From Ruminiclostridium sp. (lineage in GTDB: Bacteria > Bacillota > Clostridia > Oscillospirales > Ruminococcaceae), in the NCBI GenBank assembly GCA_017465545.1, contig JAFTVY010000036.1:1-38701 (forward strand): a stretch of DNA of 38,701 bases, read 5' to 3'. The position numbers and the translations under genes are program-made. The notes beneath the pieces were generated by a model. The model worked only from the letters and a program-made list of their open reading frames with translations, ran no database searches and was not told the origin of the DNA. Positions 13,994 to 22,185 of the stretch are shown here, piece after piece. How positions within the stretch are numbered: the first letter of the stretch is position 1; each line of letters opens with the position of its first letter.

Positions 13994-16606
13994 TCAGCGT
14001 AATGAGTAAAGCTCGGTGTTTTTAAGAGCAAGCATAGAAACCTGTGGCAGTTCACCTGCTTTTGACAGAAGAACCGTGCTGTAGCTTTCATATACGAAAT
14101 CCTCAATCAGAGCCGAAGCAGTCAGATCGTATACCATAGCTCTTGACGTGTGGGTATAAAGCTTCTTTGCACCCTCCCCGTCGTTCTTCGAGGAAGAAGA
14201 ATGAGAACTACCGGCATCAACACCTGCACATATAAGATATCTTACGCCTGATACGTCAAAGCCGACGGATGAAAGCTCCTCCTTGAGAGTAACGCCCTCG
14301 GGAAGCATATTTACAAGCTGTGTTATCTGTGCCGACGTAACGCCGTCCAACACGCTGTGCTGACTATATATATCAAGGCTGAAGCTTCTGCCGAGAGTGT
14401 TACAGAATACCCTGTCTCCCCCGCTTACTGCTGTTTTGTTCGCCGCATAAAATTCAGCAATACCACCTGCACTTTTGTTAAAGGCGATATACAGCTCGTT
14501 TTCCGATGTAAGCTCCGAATCTACGGCAAGGGATAGCAAAGATAACAGATAACCCTTTACAAGCACTCCATTTACGTAGTATCTGAATTCAGTTTTAGGC
14601 GTTATTGTCTGAGGCTGCCAGTTAAAGGTGCAATCCATGAGATAATCGTAATTATAAAGCGCACCATTTTCAGCCATATAACTGTCTGCAACCCTGAGCA
14701 TAAGCTCGGCGAAGGACATTCCCTTTATCTTGCTGTCAAACAGCGTTCTGATAGCGGCTAAAGAGCTTTTGTATTCATCATACAGCTTGTCAACCTCTTC
14801 GGGTGTCATATTCTCAACGTCTGCCGATTCGTACCGCATAATAGCGTCTAAATGAGGCTGTGCTGACATTATAACAGCCTTTAGCATATCAACGTCGCTT
14901 AAAAATACGTCAAGCTTGTTTGTAGCATCTGTTATGCTATGTTTCTTTTCCGTTACGGTATTGATATGCACGCAGTTATATATTTTTGTATGCAGATTAT
15001 CAAAATAAATTGTTTTCTCGTCTAACATTCCAAGATAGGAAGAAAGCATCTTTTTGTCCTGATAGCTTACTTTTCCTATATTTGAAAGCTTAGACATATC
15101 ATCAGAAAACGCATTCGCCCATGCCTTTGCCATAAGTGCGGTAAGATGCTCCATTTCGCTCTGGGAGAACTTGTCCGAGTCGGGTGCCGAAGCTCTTTCC
15201 TTTGCGCTGTAACGTAAGGGAAATGCGGGGATAGATTCGTTTTCTCCCCATCTGTTGAAAAGAGAGCTTGCCTTCAGCGCTACGGTACCGTAAAGCTCAG
15301 CTGTATCAGCGGTGGAGGTTTTCGGGATGGTAAATTCTATCTCGGCGTTATCATCCTGAAGCTGGATCGTTTCTACCACAGCTCTGGAATAATCCCCACC
15401 GAACACAAAGCTTGTTTTACTTACAACGTTGAAGCTTCCGTTTATAACGGAAAATCTCGCTTTAACCCTGAAGTCAGAACCGTTTTCCGTTACTGAAAGT
15501 ATCTGTGCGTAAACGTCGGGCTTGCTTGGTTTTATAGAAAAATCAAGCTTTTCGTTTATATTGAGAGCCGTTTCATTTATTGTAAAGGTGCTTGACGAGA
15601 TTTCTGTAATTGCATCCTCCACAGACTCAAAATCAAAGCTTAAGTATACAAGAGCTTCGTCAGGCGATACTCTGTTTACTCTGTTGATAGTGATTGCAGG
15701 GTTATCGCAGGACAACATCTCGGCGGATACGGAATCTGTAAAGGTGGCATCTCTGAGACTTACGGGAATGCAGGAATAGTTGAAGGTTGCCTCAAAGCCG
15801 TCCATATCCGTGATGACCAGAGGAGAGGTTATTCTTATCTCCGCCGTTACGTCCTCGGAGCTGTCGGTTATTACGTTTTTATCTACGGTTATATAACCTG
15901 TCTGAGAGTTATCATTATAACTGCACAGAATATCAACGGTAAGAGTGTTTTCGCCCGTCCGTTCCACCTTTTCAACGTCGCAGGATGAAAAACCCGCTGA
16001 CAGGGTTACGTCCTTTTCCGTTATTTTATCAGAAAAGCTTGTTTTATCCAAGGTAAGCTTTACTGAAATCCTTTCGTGGCTTCTTATAACGTGAGCTGTA
16101 TCTGAAACCATTGAATAACGGGAATATTTGACCAGTGCATAGCTGTAAAGCAGTTTATCATCCTTATTGCTGTCCTTATCGATAATAAAGATATATCCGC
16201 AAGGTCTGTTTTCTGCAAAGTCATTATCCGTAAAGGATACAGATACAGAGTTGCCTGAATTTAAAACCTCGGTGGGAGTTATATCGGTTACGCTGTACTC
16301 ATCCTCACGGAGCTGAATTCCCTTTTCGCTGTCTATCTGCGGAAGCTTATCCGCATCCGCTGTTACGTAGCATATCTTTATATCATCCGCATTGATATTA
16401 TCGGATAGCTCCGCTGTACCGCTGAAATTTACCGTGAATTTACCCTGACTGTTATAGGATATTTCGCTGTCACACTTCAGTTCAGTGTATACGTCGCTTG
16501 CTTTCGGCAAGTCTTCCTTAACCTCTGCACATCCTGATATTACCGACGTAAAAACAGAAAAAGCGAGTATTACAGCGATTTTTCTATATATATTAAGTTT
16601 TTTCAT
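13994..16606 (-). CDS. Large predicted lipoprotein, 870 residues, unknown function
   Basis: A secreted lipoprotein. It begins MKKLNIYRKIAVILAFSV and has a lipobox VISGC with the lipidated Cys26. I chose this ATG because GGAAAGGCAG precedes it and the signal peptide starts here; a longer in-frame reading from 16693 would bury the signal and overlap the upstream gene. Residues about 30-490 look like serial beta-sandwich modules (repeated patterns such as VSVSFTDNDF, ITSPLVITDMDG, STFTINETALN). Residues about 500-870 look more alpha-helical. I see no catalytic motif. It lies 34 bp after the transglutaminase-like gene, so the two probably act together at the cell surface. Confidence 0.78.
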   Translation of the reverse strand: MKKLNIYRKIAVILAFSVFTSVISGCAEVKEDLPKASDVYTELKCDSEISYNSQGKFTVNFSGTAELSDNINADDIKICYVTADADKLPQIDSEKGIQLREDEYSVTDITPTEVLNSGNSVSVSFTDNDFAENRPCGYIFIIDKDSNKDDKLLYSYALVKYSRYSMVSDTAHVIRSHERISVKLTLDKTSFSDKITEKDVTLSAGFSSCDVEKVERTGENTLTVDILCSYNDNSQTGYITVDKNVITDSSEDVTAEIRITSPLVITDMDGFEATFNYSCIPVSLRDATFTDSVSAEMLSCDNPAITINRVNRVSPDEALVYLSFDFESVEDAITEISSSTFTINETALNINEKLDFSIKPSKPDVYAQILSVTENGSDFRVKARFSVINGSFNVVSKTSFVFGGDYSRAVVETIQLQDDNAEIEFTIPKTSTADTAELYGTVALKASSLFNRWGENESIPAFPLRYSAKERASAPDSDKFSQSEMEHLTALMAKAWANAFSDDMSKLSNIGKVSYQDKKMLSSYLGMLDEKTIYFDNLHTKIYNCVHINTVTEKKHSITDATNKLDVFLSDVDMLKAVIMSAQPHLDAIMRYESADVENMTPEEVDKLYDEYKSSLAAIRTLFDSKIKGMSFAELMLRVADSYMAENGALYNYDYLMDCTFNWQPQTITPKTEFRYYVNGVLVKGYLLSLLSLAVDSELTSENELYIAFNKSAGGIAEFYAANKTAVSGGDRVFCNTLGRSFSLDIYSQHSVLDGVTSAQITQLVNMLPEGVTLKEELSSVGFDVSGVRYLICAGVDAGSSHSSSSKNDGEGAKKLYTHTSRAMVYDLTASALIEDFVYESYSTVLLSKAGELPQVSMLALKNTELYSLR

Positions 16607-16640
16607 AATCTCTGCCTTTCCTGAATTCCGGATATAATCA

Positions 16641-17936
16641 TCAATAATATGACTCCTGAGAATAGTAATTTTCAAACACGTAATAATCATCACGGGCTTC
16701 GGGAATCGGATAGTAATTAAATTCCGTATAAAGCTTACGTGAGGTATCCGTATCGTCTATCATAGGATATACAGAACGGGCATTTTCCTTTTTCATCATT
16801 TCATCGTTGAAATTGAAATAATCGTAATAAATTTCACTCTTCAACGTGCCGTCATCCCAGGTGAGGTCCATATGATACCACTGGTTATCAATGCTTATCA
16901 TATTCCACATATGACCGATACCCTGCGATTCGCCTATAATAAGAAGGTTTTCGACGCCTATTCTCTGACAGATATACTGGAAAGCTCTGGAGTAGGATTC
17001 ACAAACGCCCACTTTATCCACAAGCACGCCAAATGCCTCGTAGTCGCCCGTTTTATCCATAGTATCGGAATATTTACAATTATAGAGTATCTCGTTATGT
17101 ACCTGCACGAGATAGTCCATAAGAGTATAGCTTCCGTCTGCCTTCTGCAGTATCTGGTCTACCCTTTCCTTCGTTTTCTTTTCGTAATACTTTACGTCGC
17201 TTTCCTTGAAGTCAAAACCTAAGGTGAGAGACGTGATATTATCGTTTGAGCCGTTGCAGTTAAGACTCAAAAGAGGAACCTGGAACATAAGAGGATTATC
17301 GTAATTTACGCAGAACAGAATTTTCTGCACCTTTGAATTGGTGAGATTCTGTGAGCCGAAGCTTATGGTAGGCGTAAAGTTCTTTGCCGCCTCGTATATT
17401 TTCGTATAGATATACTTCTCATCATTATCAAGGGAGTTATAACCGTAGGCATAGTGATAATCGGTTGCATCCTTGAAAATAACGTAGGAAAAGAATACTA
17501 TGTCGCTGAGCTTATCACCATCTACAGCACATACGCATAAGAAGGTGCTTTCATTTATCTCAATACCCTTTGAATCGTCATACAGAAGAGAGTCCGCTTC
17601 GGGTATGGTGCCATCAATGGTATACCTTATTTCCTTATACTCGCTGTCGAAGTAAAGCTTCTGTGCTCTGCTGTAGAAGCCCGAATCTATAGAAGCTGTT
17701 ATTTCAGCCTTGAAGTCTCTTATATCGTGTTCTTCGCCGAACTCTGCAAGGAAAGGAAGGTGTCCAGGTGCATCCACGCTCTTTCTGAGCTGTTCATAGT
17801 CCTGTGACAGATCCTGTGCAAATACCCGGCTTGTAATTGCAGTAAAGCGATCGCCCAAGTTTTCTGCTGTAGTAAATAAGCTCACTATAATGCCAAGTAT
17901 AAGAATCATACTGAATGCCGCTGTACTTTTGTTCAT
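16641..17936 (-). CDS. Secreted or anchored transglutaminase-like cysteine protein
   Basis: 431 residues. The N-terminus (residues 6-22) is a hydrophobic signal or anchor without a lipobox. Residues about 75-155 resemble the small chitobiase/hexosaminidase C-terminal beta module (YFDSEYKEIRYTIDGTIP). Residues about 275-365 are a transglutaminase-like core with the full papain-type triad: Cys312 in VGVCESYSRAFQ, His342 in GIGHMWNMI and Asp357 in WYHMDLTWDD. Bacterial members are often peptidases or peptide-bond-forming enzymes of the cell surface; the actual reaction is unknown. It is downstream of the dnaI-like gene (16 bp) and upstream of the lipoprotein gene. Confidence 0.85.
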   Translation of the reverse strand: MNKSTAAFSMILILGIIVSLFTTAENLGDRFTAITSRVFAQDLSQDYEQLRKSVDAPGHLPFLAEFGEEHDIRDFKAEITASIDSGFYSRAQKLYFDSEYKEIRYTIDGTIPEADSLLYDDSKGIEINESTFLCVCAVDGDKLSDIVFFSYVIFKDATDYHYAYGYNSLDNDEKYIYTKIYEAAKNFTPTISFGSQNLTNSKVQKILFCVNYDNPLMFQVPLLSLNCNGSNDNITSLTLGFDFKESDVKYYEKKTKERVDQILQKADGSYTLMDYLVQVHNEILYNCKYSDTMDKTGDYEAFGVLVDKVGVCESYSRAFQYICQRIGVENLLIIGESQGIGHMWNMISIDNQWYHMDLTWDDGTLKSEIYYDYFNFNDEMMKKENARSVYPMIDDTDTSRKLYTEFNYYPIPEARDDYYVFENYYSQESYY

Positions 17937-19947: not shown

Positions 19948-20052
19948 TTTAATCACCACTTATATAAAATTCGATTTATACCCATATTATAGTATAACAT
20001 AAATCAAGCGATTTTGCACTACTTTTTTTCGATTTTTTACGAAACAAGCAAA

Positions 20053-20083
20053 AAACCTTACGGCAAGACATACCGTAAGGTTT
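20053..20083 (-). terminator. Intrinsic terminator of the large ncRNA
   Basis: On the minus strand: AAACCTTACGG, a 9-nt loop, CCGTAAGGTTT and then more T (the T-run covers about 20055-20050). The stem is a perfect 11 bp and points away from the promoter at 20660. Confidence 0.88.
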
Positions 20084-20443
20084 ATATTATTTAATTTTGA
20101 TTAGTCAGCTATGCTGAACTGTTAGTATCAATCAGTACATTGGTATATACCCCGCTAAATAATATTTTGTTATTCTGCAGTTTATTGATAATATCTCACC
20201 TTAAACACATCCTTAATATTTTACAACTGCCTATTTAAAACTACCTTTGACTGAAAGAACACTAATCATATCAATCACCTTGCCTTTATAGGTCTATGTA
20301 AACGCTTATAGCGGTAGAGTGCATCTTTACAATGCAATTAAGGTTTTTATCAGTCCGTCTGACTCATAGCGTTTTAAGTAAATCTTAAAGCTTCAGGTTT
20401 TCGCAGATACCGTTTGAGTATCCGGATCAATACCCCTCTTGTC

Positions 20444-20497
20444 TTATATGCCACGAGTCCTTATGGACTGTGATTCTGTAACTGGTTCCTTACCCAT
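20444..20497 (-). CDS. Possible 17-residue peptide inside the ncRNA
   Basis: An ATG at 20497 is preceded by AGGAGG with an 8-nt gap, an ideal ribosome site, and reads MGKEPVTESQSIRTRGI before TAA. The same bases also take part in predicted stems (AGTCC/GGACT), so the site may be structural rather than translated. There is no known family. It would make the RNA dual-function if real. Confidence 0.25.
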   Translation of the reverse strand: MGKEPVTESQSIRTRGI

Positions 20498-20631
20498 CGG
20501 ACCCGCCTCCTTCTCGACTGAATTTGTACACCTTTACATCTTGTGTACATTGTGAATAAACTTACTTTATTATATTAAGACGTTAGCACCAAGCTGTTTA
20601 TTCTGTCTGGGGTTTTGTTTTCCTTGATTAA

Positions 20632-20660
20632 ATAATACCACATAAATAACCAATTGTCAA
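20632..20660 (-). promoter_or_regulatory. Consensus sigma-A promoter of the large ncRNA
   Basis: On the minus strand: perfect TTGACA (20660-20655), a 17-bp spacer, and TATTAT (20637-20632). The predicted transcription start is near 20625. It is among the strongest promoters in the window by consensus. Confidence 0.85.
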
Positions 20661-20797
20661 CACAAAAGTTGAAAAATAATATACAAAGTGCATAAATTGT
20701 CTTTGTGTATTTTGCATAGCGTTACATTTTGTTTTCACAAAAGTACCAAAAACCGCTGAATTTTTCACTAAATTTCAGCTAATATAACATTTTCCAC

Positions 20798-20826
20798 TTG
20801 ACACGAAGAATATTTTCGTGTAAAAT
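20798..20826 (+). promoter_or_regulatory. Sigma-A promoter with an embedded operator-like dyad
   Basis: TTGACA (20798-20803), a 17-bp spacer, and TAAAAT (20821-20826). A perfect 7-bp inverted repeat ACACGAA ... TTCGTGT (20801-20807 and 20815-20821) fills the spacer and touches both boxes, as expected for a repressor site. It drives the DUF1292 gene and perhaps the 6S RNA. Confidence 0.8.
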
Positions 20827-20872
20827 TATAATCATAAGAGAGACAAATCTCAGCGACAGAAAGGAAAACGTT

Positions 20873-21193
20873 ATGTCAGAGCTTGAAAAAAACATAAATG
20901 AAGAAGAAGAGTTTGCTCCTGAGCTTATTGATCTTGAGGATGAAGAAGGCAACACAGTCACCTTTGAAATCATCGACGGTCTTGAGTTCGAAGGATGCGG
21001 ATATTATGCGCTTATCCCCTACAGCGAGGATGACAAGGAAGACGTAGAAGAGGACGAATTCGTGATCTTAAAGGAAACCGAAAAGGATGGCGAAACCTAT
21101 CTTGCAACTATCGACAACGATGAAGAATACGATCGTGTAGGTGCCGCATTCCTCGAAAGATTCTCCGAAATACTCGGCGAGGATGCTCAATAA
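20873..21193 (+). CDS. DUF1292 domain protein
   Basis: A 106-residue acidic protein. After a short Glu-rich lead, the DUF1292 core is clear (about 20-100): LIDLEDEEGNTVTFEIIDGL, YYALIPY and FVILKETEKDGE. The function of the family is unknown. In Firmicutes it usually sits with ruvX/yrrK; here it stands beside a 6S-like RNA instead. The start is the ATG preceded by AAAGGAAAAC; a longer in-frame reading from 20798 would begin inside the promoter -35 box and is rejected. Confidence 0.9.
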   Translation: MSELEKNINEEEEFAPELIDLEDEEGNTVTFEIIDGLEFEGCGYYALIPYSEDDKEDVEEDEFVILKETEKDGETYLATIDNDEEYDRVGAAFLERFSEILGEDAQ

Positions 21194-21204
21194 ATCAGTT
21201 TAAT

Positions 21205-21386
21205 CACTGCCTTGTGCGTTTAAGTATGATTGTTATGATCCAACACTTAATTAATAGGGATTTCTACTCCGGGTGCGGATTGCAGACCTCCCGCCTTTAG
21301 CGGACGAAGGGAGCGTGAACCATTCGGGTGATCTTACCCACCGTGCTTATGTACGGGTTTTATCGTCATACCACGGCAAGGTGGTA
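21205..21386 (+). ncRNA. ssrS: Probable 6S RNA
   Basis: About 182 nt that fold as one long interrupted hairpin. The ends pair as ACTGCCTTG (21206-21214) with CAAGGTGGT (21377-21385), counting two wobbles, then GTATGA with TCATAC. The apical part has CTCCC/GGGAG and CCGC/GCGG. On the 3' side of the central bubble is a small hairpin CCGTGC-TTAT-GTACGG followed by GGTTT, the same position and form as the CCUUG hairpin and GGGUU of E. coli 6S RNA. Size is normal for 6S, which binds sigma-70 holoenzyme as an open-promoter mimic. rarA is close by; from memory, the Bacillus 6S gene bsrA also lies near rarA. No separate promoter is obvious, so it may be processed from the DUF1292 transcript. Confidence 0.72.
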
Positions 21387-21398
21387 CATAAAAATCAC

Positions 21399-21472: not shown

Positions 21473-21820
21473 ATGAAAAATAAAACGTCGTATATTTTCG
21501 GTCTGCTATGTGGATTTCTGAACGGTCTTTTCGGCTCGGGCGGAGGTACGGTGGCAGTTCCCTGCCTTGAAAAAAGCGGACTTGAAACTAAAAAAGCTCA
21601 CGCATCTTCCGTTCTGCTGATTTTCGTTCTGAGCATTTTTACAAGCATTATCTATTTCCTGAACGGAAATCTGGATTTTTCGCTTGCGGCACAGTTTATT
21701 CCCTATGGAATAATAGGGGCGGTTATAGGTTCGCTCACTCTCAGGAAAATATCGTCTGATATTCTGAAAAAAATATTTGCCGTTATAATCATTATCAGCG
21801 GAGTAAGGATACTGTTATGA
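21473..21820 (+). CDS. TauE/SafE (TSUP) transporter, N-terminal half-size subunit
   Basis: 115 residues with about four membrane helices, equal to one DUF81 repeat. The signature near the N-terminus is GLLCGFLNGLFGSGGGTVAVPCL, with the Gly-rich loop of sulfite/organic-anion exporters, and GIIGAVIGSLTLRKISSDIL follows. Usual TSUP proteins are about 250 residues with two such repeats. Here the second repeat is the next gene, overlapping as ATGA, so the pair probably assembles as a heterodimer. The substrate is unknown; sulfite, sulfoacetate and related anions are candidates. Confidence 0.85.
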   Translation: MKNKTSYIFGLLCGFLNGLFGSGGGTVAVPCLEKSGLETKKAHASSVLLIFVLSIFTSIIYFLNGNLDFSLAAQFIPYGIIGAVIGSLTLRKISSDILKKIFAVIIIISGVRILL

Positions 21821-22185
21821 ATATCATAATCGGATTATTATCGGGGATAGCCGCCTCAATGGGACTTGGCGGCGGCTTTATACTGCTTATATACCTGTCC
21901 GCCTTTACCGATACAAGTCAGGCTGTGGCGCAGGGTGTCAACGTTCTTTTCTTTCTGCCTATTGCCCTTATTTCGGTAATCATACATCTTAAAAACAAGC
22001 TGATTGACATAAGGACGGTTTTTAAATACTGCATTGCAGGTCTTGTAGGTGCAGTAATCGGGAGCTTTTTATCGGCATATCTTGACACGTTGATTTTAAA
22101 AAAGCTGTTCGGAGTTTTTCTTATAATCATAGGATTGAAGGAATTATTCTGGAGCAAAGCAAAAAAAGAGCCACAGGAAAAATAA
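21817..22185 (+). CDS. TauE/SafE (TSUP) transporter, C-terminal half-size subunit
   Basis: 122 residues, about four membrane helices, the second DUF81 repeat. It repeats the loop motif as GLLSGIAASMGLGGGFILLIYL and has the matching GLVGAVIGSFLSAYLDTLIL. Its ATG overlaps the stop of the first half by 4 bp, giving coupled translation and a 1:1 ratio. I find no frameshift that would join the halves: each has its own start and a full repeat, so this is a two-gene arrangement rather than a broken gene. Its stop lies inside the following terminator loop. Confidence 0.85.
   Translation: MNIIIGLLSGIAASMGLGGGFILLIYLSAFTDTSQAVAQGVNVLFFLPIALISVIIHLKNKLIDIRTVFKYCIAGLVGAVIGSFLSAYLDTLILKKLFGVFLIIIGLKELFWSKAKKEPQEK

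Follow-up and report, generated by a model that had tools for sequence, protein, structure and literature searches.

Between a dnaD-like gene and a DUF1292 gene in Ruminiclostridium sp. lies a stretch of DNA that looks like a complete transcription unit without a long reading frame. The question it raises is what such a unit makes: a leader for the next gene, a regulatory RNA, a message for small peptides, or something of another kind. The window (the whole stretch of DNA that was analysed, 38,701 nt) had been annotated before from its letters, and the earlier note proposed an independent, structured RNA of about 580 nt at this place.

The transcription unit and its neighbours

The unit and the two genes divergent from it are placed as follows.

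20632..20660, minus strand: promoter read from the sequence, TTGACA (20660-20655), 17-nt spacer, TG-N-TATTAT (20637-20632)
20047..20626, minus strand: transcript of about 580 nt, both ends inferred from promoter and terminator
20053..20083, minus strand: intrinsic terminator-like hairpin of 13 pairs (5 G-C) with a T-rich tail
20798..21193, plus strand: DUF1292 gene (Pfam PF06949), divergent neighbour
21201..21391, plus strand: 6S RNA, divergent neighbour just downstream of DUF1292 (RF00013, 46.4 bits, exactly the gathering score)

The TTGACA-17-TATTAT promoter of the earlier note was confirmed; it matches the consensus at 11 of 12 positions and has a TG ahead of the -10 box (an extended -10). 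The absence of a long frame over about 580 nt was confirmed as well, no ORF of at least 80 aa being listed between 19960 and 20797. At the other end the hairpin and T-rich tail described before are present, with 13 pairs counted at 20083-20053 instead of 11. Forty-five RNAs were scanned with a strict promoter rule that admits spacers of 16-18 nt. TTGACN, 17 nt and TANNNT were found in 38, the window included, and in all 38 a TG is separated from the -10 box by a single base; the seven without a match to the strict rule are L074, L075, L076, L079, L081, L083, and L163. A terminator was found in 37 of the 45 (the window among them) and was lacking in eight. The regularity of the promoter argues for strong, conserved transcription of the RNA gene, driven by what appears to be a sigma-A type promoter whose extended -10 box is kept across relatives.

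The conserved neighbours lie on the upstream side. DUF1292 is divergent from the RNA in 11/11 close loci and in 15/16 loci of a second set of relatives, called group 2 (the exception is L134, with a flank of 342 nt). A 6S-like motif was found on the opposite strand, 0.77-1.4 kb from the first tiny ORF (ORF1), in 19/22 loci from the window's genus and others. Of the three loci without it, L148 and L156 offer no more than 800 nt on the upstream side, and L146 has 7.5 kb. Searching by blastn with five 6S genes gave 6S in 15/16 group 2 loci (the miss is again L134, and the match in L135 is cut by the contig end) and none in the loci of family f13, where the flank is at most 878 nt. The Rfam cut-off for 6S was reached in fewer loci than the motif or blastn detected. 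Among loci whose flank is long enough, almost all have DUF1292 and 6S divergent from the RNA gene. On the downstream side a dnaD-like gene adjoins the RNA in 6/11 close loci, and different genes are found there elsewhere. The earlier placement between dnaD and DUF1292 therefore stands for DUF1292, while the "dnaD" gene of the window has a DnaB_2 domain and is adjacent in only those six loci. Because the upstream side is fixed and the downstream side variable, the RNA is read as an independent gene and not as a leader of dnaD, in agreement with the independence claimed before: the unit has its own promoter and terminator, and these are kept in relatives despite differing downstream genes.

This arrangement makes it very improbable that the RNA is a cis-acting leader or attenuator of the next gene. 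Short ORFs followed by a terminator do look attenuator-like, and in g20, which belongs to another family, a similar start element is found in short leader ORFs before lipoprotein-like genes. However, relatives differ in the gene that follows the RNA, in the window the terminator comes ahead of that gene, and the neighbours that are conserved are the divergent DUF1292 and 6S genes. As a separate observation, the leader ORF of g20 (family f20; L219, L238, L243, L244, and L248), which encodes MGSTETE... or a similar peptide, is present several times per genome. It has the start element AAGGAAGTGAGTCCRATGGG and precedes lipoprotein-like genes, and the copies may form a family of attenuators whose start element resembles that of the RNA.

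Three further observations concern the window itself. The 6S RNA starts 7 nt past the end of the DUF1292 frame, and the two may be co-transcribed in this group. TauE is represented by two half-size tandem ORFs, 21473-21820 (the Pfam C-terminal half) followed by 21817-22185 (the N-terminal half). At 13994-16693 on the minus strand, an 899-aa ORF has no Pfam match at E <=0.001.

The earlier note had been unable to match the RNA to a known class, and no Rfam family was found to overlap it in the window or in relatives. When the whole window was compared with Rfam at gathering, the sole match was the neighbouring 6S RNA at 21201-21391, a gene the earlier note had not seen; the RNA under study does not itself match RF00013. 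Nor does it belong to any family of Rfam 15, OLE, ROOL, GOLLD, raiA, tmRNA, and RNase P included. At gathering, 59 distinct relative loci (some from the same genomes) matched only neighbouring 6S, RNase P, tRNA, and T-box. Relaxed scans gave chance-level matches only (E 0.24 and above) across 19960-20800, and no family for one group 2 and one f13 member, with one sub-threshold match at E 0.24.

Relatives and the covarying 5' domain

By blastn, the RNA was detected in 11/71 genomes of the window's genus, its own included, at E <1e-8; weak matches in 14 more (E 0.002-0.1) were treated as chance. A covariance model of the 5' part, termed R1 and built from 11 sequences, reached 37/71 genomes of the genus at E <=0.1 (28/41 of those of good quality) and 24/71 at E<5e-5. 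In a sample of the family it matched 7/197 genomes at E <=0.01, three of them from the window's genus.

A start motif, AAGGMRGCGAGTCCRATGG, was found in 87 stretches of a public genome collection. Scoring of these with R1 covered 80 listed stretches and seven viral loci, with L195-L201 outside it, and gave 22 loci at E <=0.01 and 35 at E <=10, none of them viral. The seven pattern matches on viral contigs were taken as chance because their frames run to 64-82 codons and R1 does not match them; phage records likewise gave no match to the RNA. By eye, 42 of the 87 stretches were kept as relatives, and the 45 set aside comprise unrelated hosts, long frames, look-alikes from Coriobacteria, and a few Clostridia (such as L120, L121, and L123). 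The 42, together with loci from other searches and minus identical cores, make up a table of 49 RNAs. With one mismatch allowed, the motif occurs in 29/394 genomes of the order as compared with three genomes for a reversed control, and some of these genomes carry something other than the RNA under study.

The start-motif scan exposed group 2, which consists of Clostridia MAGs with an ORF1 of the MELNEPFSKTSAESQSAER type. A pattern for the 3' half, GCGTTTAYATA...GGTGRTT..ATG (the block GCGTTTACATAGA plus the start of ORF2), was found in 6/297 family genomes and in no reversed control. Two of the six are of the window's genus, and the other four are every g118 genome sampled. In two of the g118 genomes, G187 and G272, the start motif is present at the same place, and their sequences belong to group 2 (L223 and L224); two separate blocks therefore travel together. 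What group 2 has in common with the window's genus is the start of ORF1 and the 3' half; the 5' domain is not shared. Relatives of the RNA are thus found in the window's genus and a second genus, and possibly further off: in family f13, L249, L250, and L251, which by eye have an ORF1 and an end resembling a terminator, may be distant forms. Many carriers are MAGs from animal gut or rumen.

Beside these, records of Collinsella, Enorma, and a Coriobacteriaceae (L158, L166, L170, L175, and L178) have copies of the same start element, AAGGAGGCGAGTCCAATGG, which leads into a frame 19-20 codons long (of the MGTEDIAQAFG... type), and R1 matches at E 0.012-0.1. In L170, L175, and L178, GCGAGUCC can pair with GGGCUCGU, as judged by eye. 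It is possible that these look-alikes are remote relatives in another phylum.

The 589-nt strand of the window has a minimum free energy of -143.1 (z = -3.3), and none of 100 dinucleotide shuffles folded as low. The elements of the 5' domain are listed here.

20605..20612, minus strand: CCCC-A-GAC, strand of the 5' helix (RNAalifold)
20554..20603, minus strand: stem A, GAAU (20603-20600) with AUUC (20557-20554), inner CUU/AAG
20525..20549, minus strand: stem B, UGUACAC/GUGUACA (helix 4)

According to RNAalifold, CCCC-A-GAC can pair with GUC (20518-20516) and with the GG.GG of the ORF1 Shine-Dalgarno sequence (20510-20506), and in the close group stems A and B lie between the two strands of this helix. 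The GAC/GUC portion (helix 2) covaries, with CGA/UCG and other pairs in 8-9 sequences and pairing in 100%. In stem A, two-sided changes were found in the outer stem and one inner pair (RNAalifold, 11 sequences) and, in the 27-sequence alignment, in the inner stem (helix 3); in stem B 7/8 modelled pairs show them. Overall, 96.3% of cells are paired in an R1 alignment of 27 sequences, and 16/29 pairs show a two-sided change; as this alignment was fitted to the R1 model and includes its 11 training sequences, it leans towards the structure. Slid registers reach at most 41.7% paired. None of 500 shuffles reached the structure in four of five measures, and 2/500 did so for pair types. A plain MAFFT alignment of 11 sequences gave two-sided changes in 10/36 pairs by RNAalifold. 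The covariation that the earlier note asked to be sought in homologous regions was thus found, and it supports a structured RNA whose 5' domain covaries in the window's genus. Of the longer-range CTACC/GGTAG pairing noted before, both strands are present in the window (20317-20313 and 20245-20241), while GGTAG is absent at the equivalent place in L003.

The 5' domain may also bear on translation. The ORF1 start codon lies within a hairpin, GGGUCC (20504-20499) with GGACUC (20460-20455) in the window and GAGUCC/GGACUC in the close group. The CC/GG portion of the 5' helix, at the ORF1 Shine-Dalgarno site, is almost invariant, and in the single-sequence fold of the window CCCC pairs with a different G run; for these two reasons, hiding of the ORF1 ribosome-binding site by the 5' domain is plausible, not proven. 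Moreover, R1 scarcely matches group 2 (best E 0.27), so that control of ORF1 by this domain would not be general.

Tiny reading frames along the RNA

The start sites and conserved blocks in the window run in the following order.

20444..20514, minus strand: ORF1 with ribosome-binding site AGAAGGAGG (20514-20506), ATG at 20497, peptide MGKEPVTESQSIRTRGI, stop ending at 20444
20410..20419, minus strand: conserved block ACTCAAACGG, from the alignment of relatives
20293..20315, minus strand: conserved block ACCGC-n-GCGTTTACATAGA
20231..20280, minus strand: ORF2 with ribosome-binding site AGGTGATT, ATG at 20269, peptide MISVLSVKGSFK, stop ending at 20231
20182..20214, minus strand: possible ORF3 (weak), AAGGATG..., GTG at 20199, MRYYQ, stop ending at 20182
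20132..20155, minus strand: ORF4, a two-codon minigene, GCGGGGTATATACCA, ATG at 20140, ATG-TAC-TGA

The frames after these start sites are 2 to 17 codons long, the peptide of ORF4 being MY, and ORF4 has the sequence form of a two-codon minigene (Shine-Dalgarno, start, zero or one further sense codon, stop). The term non-coding RNA used in the earlier note accordingly holds for the structure and the lack of an Rfam class; it does not hold for the lack of frames, since several short ORFs with Shine-Dalgarno sequences stand in a fixed order, an array that the note had not seen.

In relatives, the shared order is ORF1, ACTCAAACGG, ACCGC-n-GCGTTTACATAGA, ORF2, sometimes ORF3, ORF4, and the terminator, with AATTGAATA kept ahead of the terminator in many. 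The tiny ORFs recur in this order in most of the 49 tabulated RNAs, the window included (only ORFs of <30 codons were entered, and near-duplicates remain once identical cores are taken out). ORF1 with its ribosome-binding site was found in 11/11 aligned RNAs, the window counted. At the place equivalent to ACTCAAACGG, CTC[AT][AT]ACGG was found in 7/14 loci scanned, loci that came from a model without that block; the block is variable in group 2, where the ORF2 start site is retained. ORF2 and ORF3 are not present in all relatives, the ORF3 candidate of the window being likewise not kept in every one. Further start sites were found in addition. One or two mini-ORFs often precede ORF1 in group 2, as in L119, whose array is MGC, MA, MELNEPFSKTSAESQSAER (a 19-mer), MCALMKRKGKYG (a 12-mer), MSDKVCS, and a bare AUG-UAA. 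In L079 there are three tandem copies of ORF2 (MEGEYLPL, MESEYLPL, and MEGEYLLL), each with its own start element and with ATGs at +279, +346, and +413 from ORF1 in the orientation of the RNA. Among the starts read, non-ATG codons are GTG (ORF1 of L006 and L077, ORF2 of L080) and TTG (ORF2 of L078).

The starts follow a Shine-Dalgarno run, and CC-R very often stands directly 5' of the start codon, a context found in 1/123 long ORFs from the window and 30 dnaD loci. The motif AAGGAGG-n-GA-n-UCC resembles an extended sequence complementary to the 3' tail of 16S. A subset of 28 among the 49 RNAs holds 95 tiny ORFs that begin with ATG behind a Shine-Dalgarno, as compared with 29.6 in dinucleotide shuffles, and 55 in the CC-R-ATG context as compared with 0.65; ORF1 was left out of both counts because the motif that had selected many loci contains the CC-R context. 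Under the rule of this test L078 has no further Shine-Dalgarno ATG, and L006, L072, and L045 have no further start with the CC-R context. The window RNA by itself, with two Shine-Dalgarno tiny ORFs as compared with 1.2 expected, is not unusual and was rejected as evidence for an array. Given this and the lack in L078, the array is a comparative finding.

The lengths of the frames were compared with those of the other two frames in 43 RNAs, duplicates counted once, with ORF4 located by its upstream context (none was located in L072). ORF4 stops after 1-7 codons in 38/38 distinct copies, with a median of 2 as compared with 6 and 8 in the other frames; its stop is the earliest of the three frames in 30/38 (Wilcoxon p = 1e-7), and all three stop codons are used. 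The upstream mini-ORFs of group 2 have a median of 3 codons as compared with 16 and 20 (21 copies, p = 0.001), with one exception of 57 codons. ORF1, by comparison, is open for 15-27 codons in 40 distinct copies and is the longest frame in 20/40 (p = 0.0006), and ORF2, open for 8-16 codons in 17 distinct copies, does not differ from the other frames (p = 0.19). These p-values ignore relatedness and are optimistic because the sequences are related. A protein recognising the start motif may shape part of the pattern. However, if the AUG were merely part of a protein-binding motif, the sequence downstream of it would be free, and the early stops, which such a protein leaves unexplained, show otherwise.

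The open frames of ORF1 and ORF2 bear on the reading of the RNA as a polycistronic mRNA for several functional micropeptides. In four sets of ORF1 and ORF2, zero in-frame stops were matched in just 12-22/400 column permutations, and ORF2 ends in a RIGPSE- or RIDSAG-like sequence in several distant members. Nevertheless, neither the third-position excess (p = 0.11-0.73) nor BLOSUM similarity of the peptides (p = 0.055-0.29) is significant, and peptide conservation was rejected as the chief signal. Moreover, ORFs of one or two codons give no real peptide, and the ORF2 start of L007 is followed directly by TAA; this reading is considered quite unlikely. In group 2, two in-frame stops fall inside six codons of ORF3. 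What is conserved is the start sites, which rank among the best conserved features of the RNA, and the shortness of the ORFs, the peptides hardly so.

The repeated AAGGA motifs also suggest a sponge that binds CsrA through many GGA motifs, and csrA is present in 55/71 genomes of the genus, the window's included. This explanation is disfavoured to the point of being scarcely credible, because csrA was not found in 11/24 carriers of the RNA (R1 E<5e-5), namely G009, G013, G018, G030, G031, G093, G005, G029, G033, and G094 (each at least 96% complete) and G077 (83%); in addition, a CsrA sponge has no need of start and stop codons. On its own account, csrA is patchy in the window's genus, not being found in several nearly complete genomes.

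Rated second among the explanations, although still somewhat unlikely, is a dual-function regulatory RNA like RNAIII, which would act in trans on mRNAs or proteins while translation of its short ORFs only tunes folding or decay. It accords with the covarying structure, with conserved blocks that belong to no ORF, for instance ACTCAAACGG and GCGTTTACATAGA, with a structure that can hide the first start site, and with a size near that of RNAIII. The early stop after the last start site, the extra start sites of group 2, and the repeated ORF2 of L079 are left unexplained by it.

Proposed action and comparison with known systems

The pattern of starts and early stops suggests that the job of the RNA is ribosome engagement rather than protein making. 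The reading placed first, held tentatively at a little short of an even chance, is that a stable, structured, and strongly transcribed RNA works by engaging initiating ribosomes, as a sponge or a sensor. The RNA would be made in quantity and be stable; initiating ribosomes would bind its start sites and terminate after forming few bonds or none; and one RNA would hold or cycle several ribosomes. As the outcome, the supply of initiating ribosomes or of initiator tRNA would be buffered or sensed, with the 5' domain setting the accessibility of the first start site. The peptides themselves would probably not be the product.

For S. aureus, PMC13009471 describes initiation as directed by extended Shine-Dalgarno pairing close to the start. 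For two-codon ORFs with a strong Shine-Dalgarno, the accessible text of PMC8708949 reports that ribosomes reinitiate without leaving and that tRNA is depleted; given such reinitiation without release, the RNA could occupy several ribosomes.

A further, unlikely proposal draws on the gene order. 6S RNA binds RNA polymerase. Lying back-to-back with 6S, the RNA would be its ribosome-side counterpart, binding several initiating ribosomes through a Shine-Dalgarno start-stop array and matching translation capacity to growth.

If ribosomes do occupy the start sites, this would be a new means by which RNA alone acts on translation, and start-stop ORFs would count as working elements instead of noise. 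An apparent non-coding RNA can also retain its start codons as the peptides drift, which is a trap for surveys of both ncRNAs and small proteins. In the titles and abstracts of the PubMed Central open set, neither a description of this RNA nor global control by tiny-ORF arrays was found; subscription papers lie outside this scope, and an unlabelled entry in a survey list is possible. Since no class known to us accommodates a structured RNA that stands alone and bears a conserved start-stop ORF array, the kind is provisionally called new; should it act like RNAIII, it would rather be a variant dual-function RNA.

Several known systems have features in common with it. The classes described in a survey of uORFs and sORFs, as given in the excerpted text of PMC11109978, likewise have a conserved start and stop, a Shine-Dalgarno, and an intergenic motif, but theirs are sORFs, or single uORFs that precede a main ORF, whereas here they form arrays. 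OLE, ROOL, GOLLD, raiA, 6S, tmRNA, and RNase P are similar as large or abundant standalone RNA genes, while the RNA described here has no Rfam match. Large standalone bacterial RNAs are few, and we know of none with an array of minimal ORFs. RNAIII and SgrS are dual-function RNAs, in which a structured transcript of regulatory size carries one functional peptide ORF; a structured transcript with a short ORF is found here too, but with several tiny ORFs and weakly conserved peptides. In sponges of the CsrB/RsmZ type a GGA-containing motif is repeated in one RNA. The GGA repeats are alike, but in the present RNA the motif leads on to a start codon with a stop soon after it.

The closest likeness at the level of single ORFs is to two-codon minigenes, of which bar of phage lambda is one. 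The mg2 minigene of axe-txe likewise consists of a Shine-Dalgarno, ATG, zero or one further codon, and a stop, and such minigenes affect ribosome re-use and tRNA supply, as described in the accessible part of PMC8708949. These cases are mini-ORFs of leaders or toxic transcripts, whereas in the present one several short ORFs follow in order on a structured RNA that stands alone.
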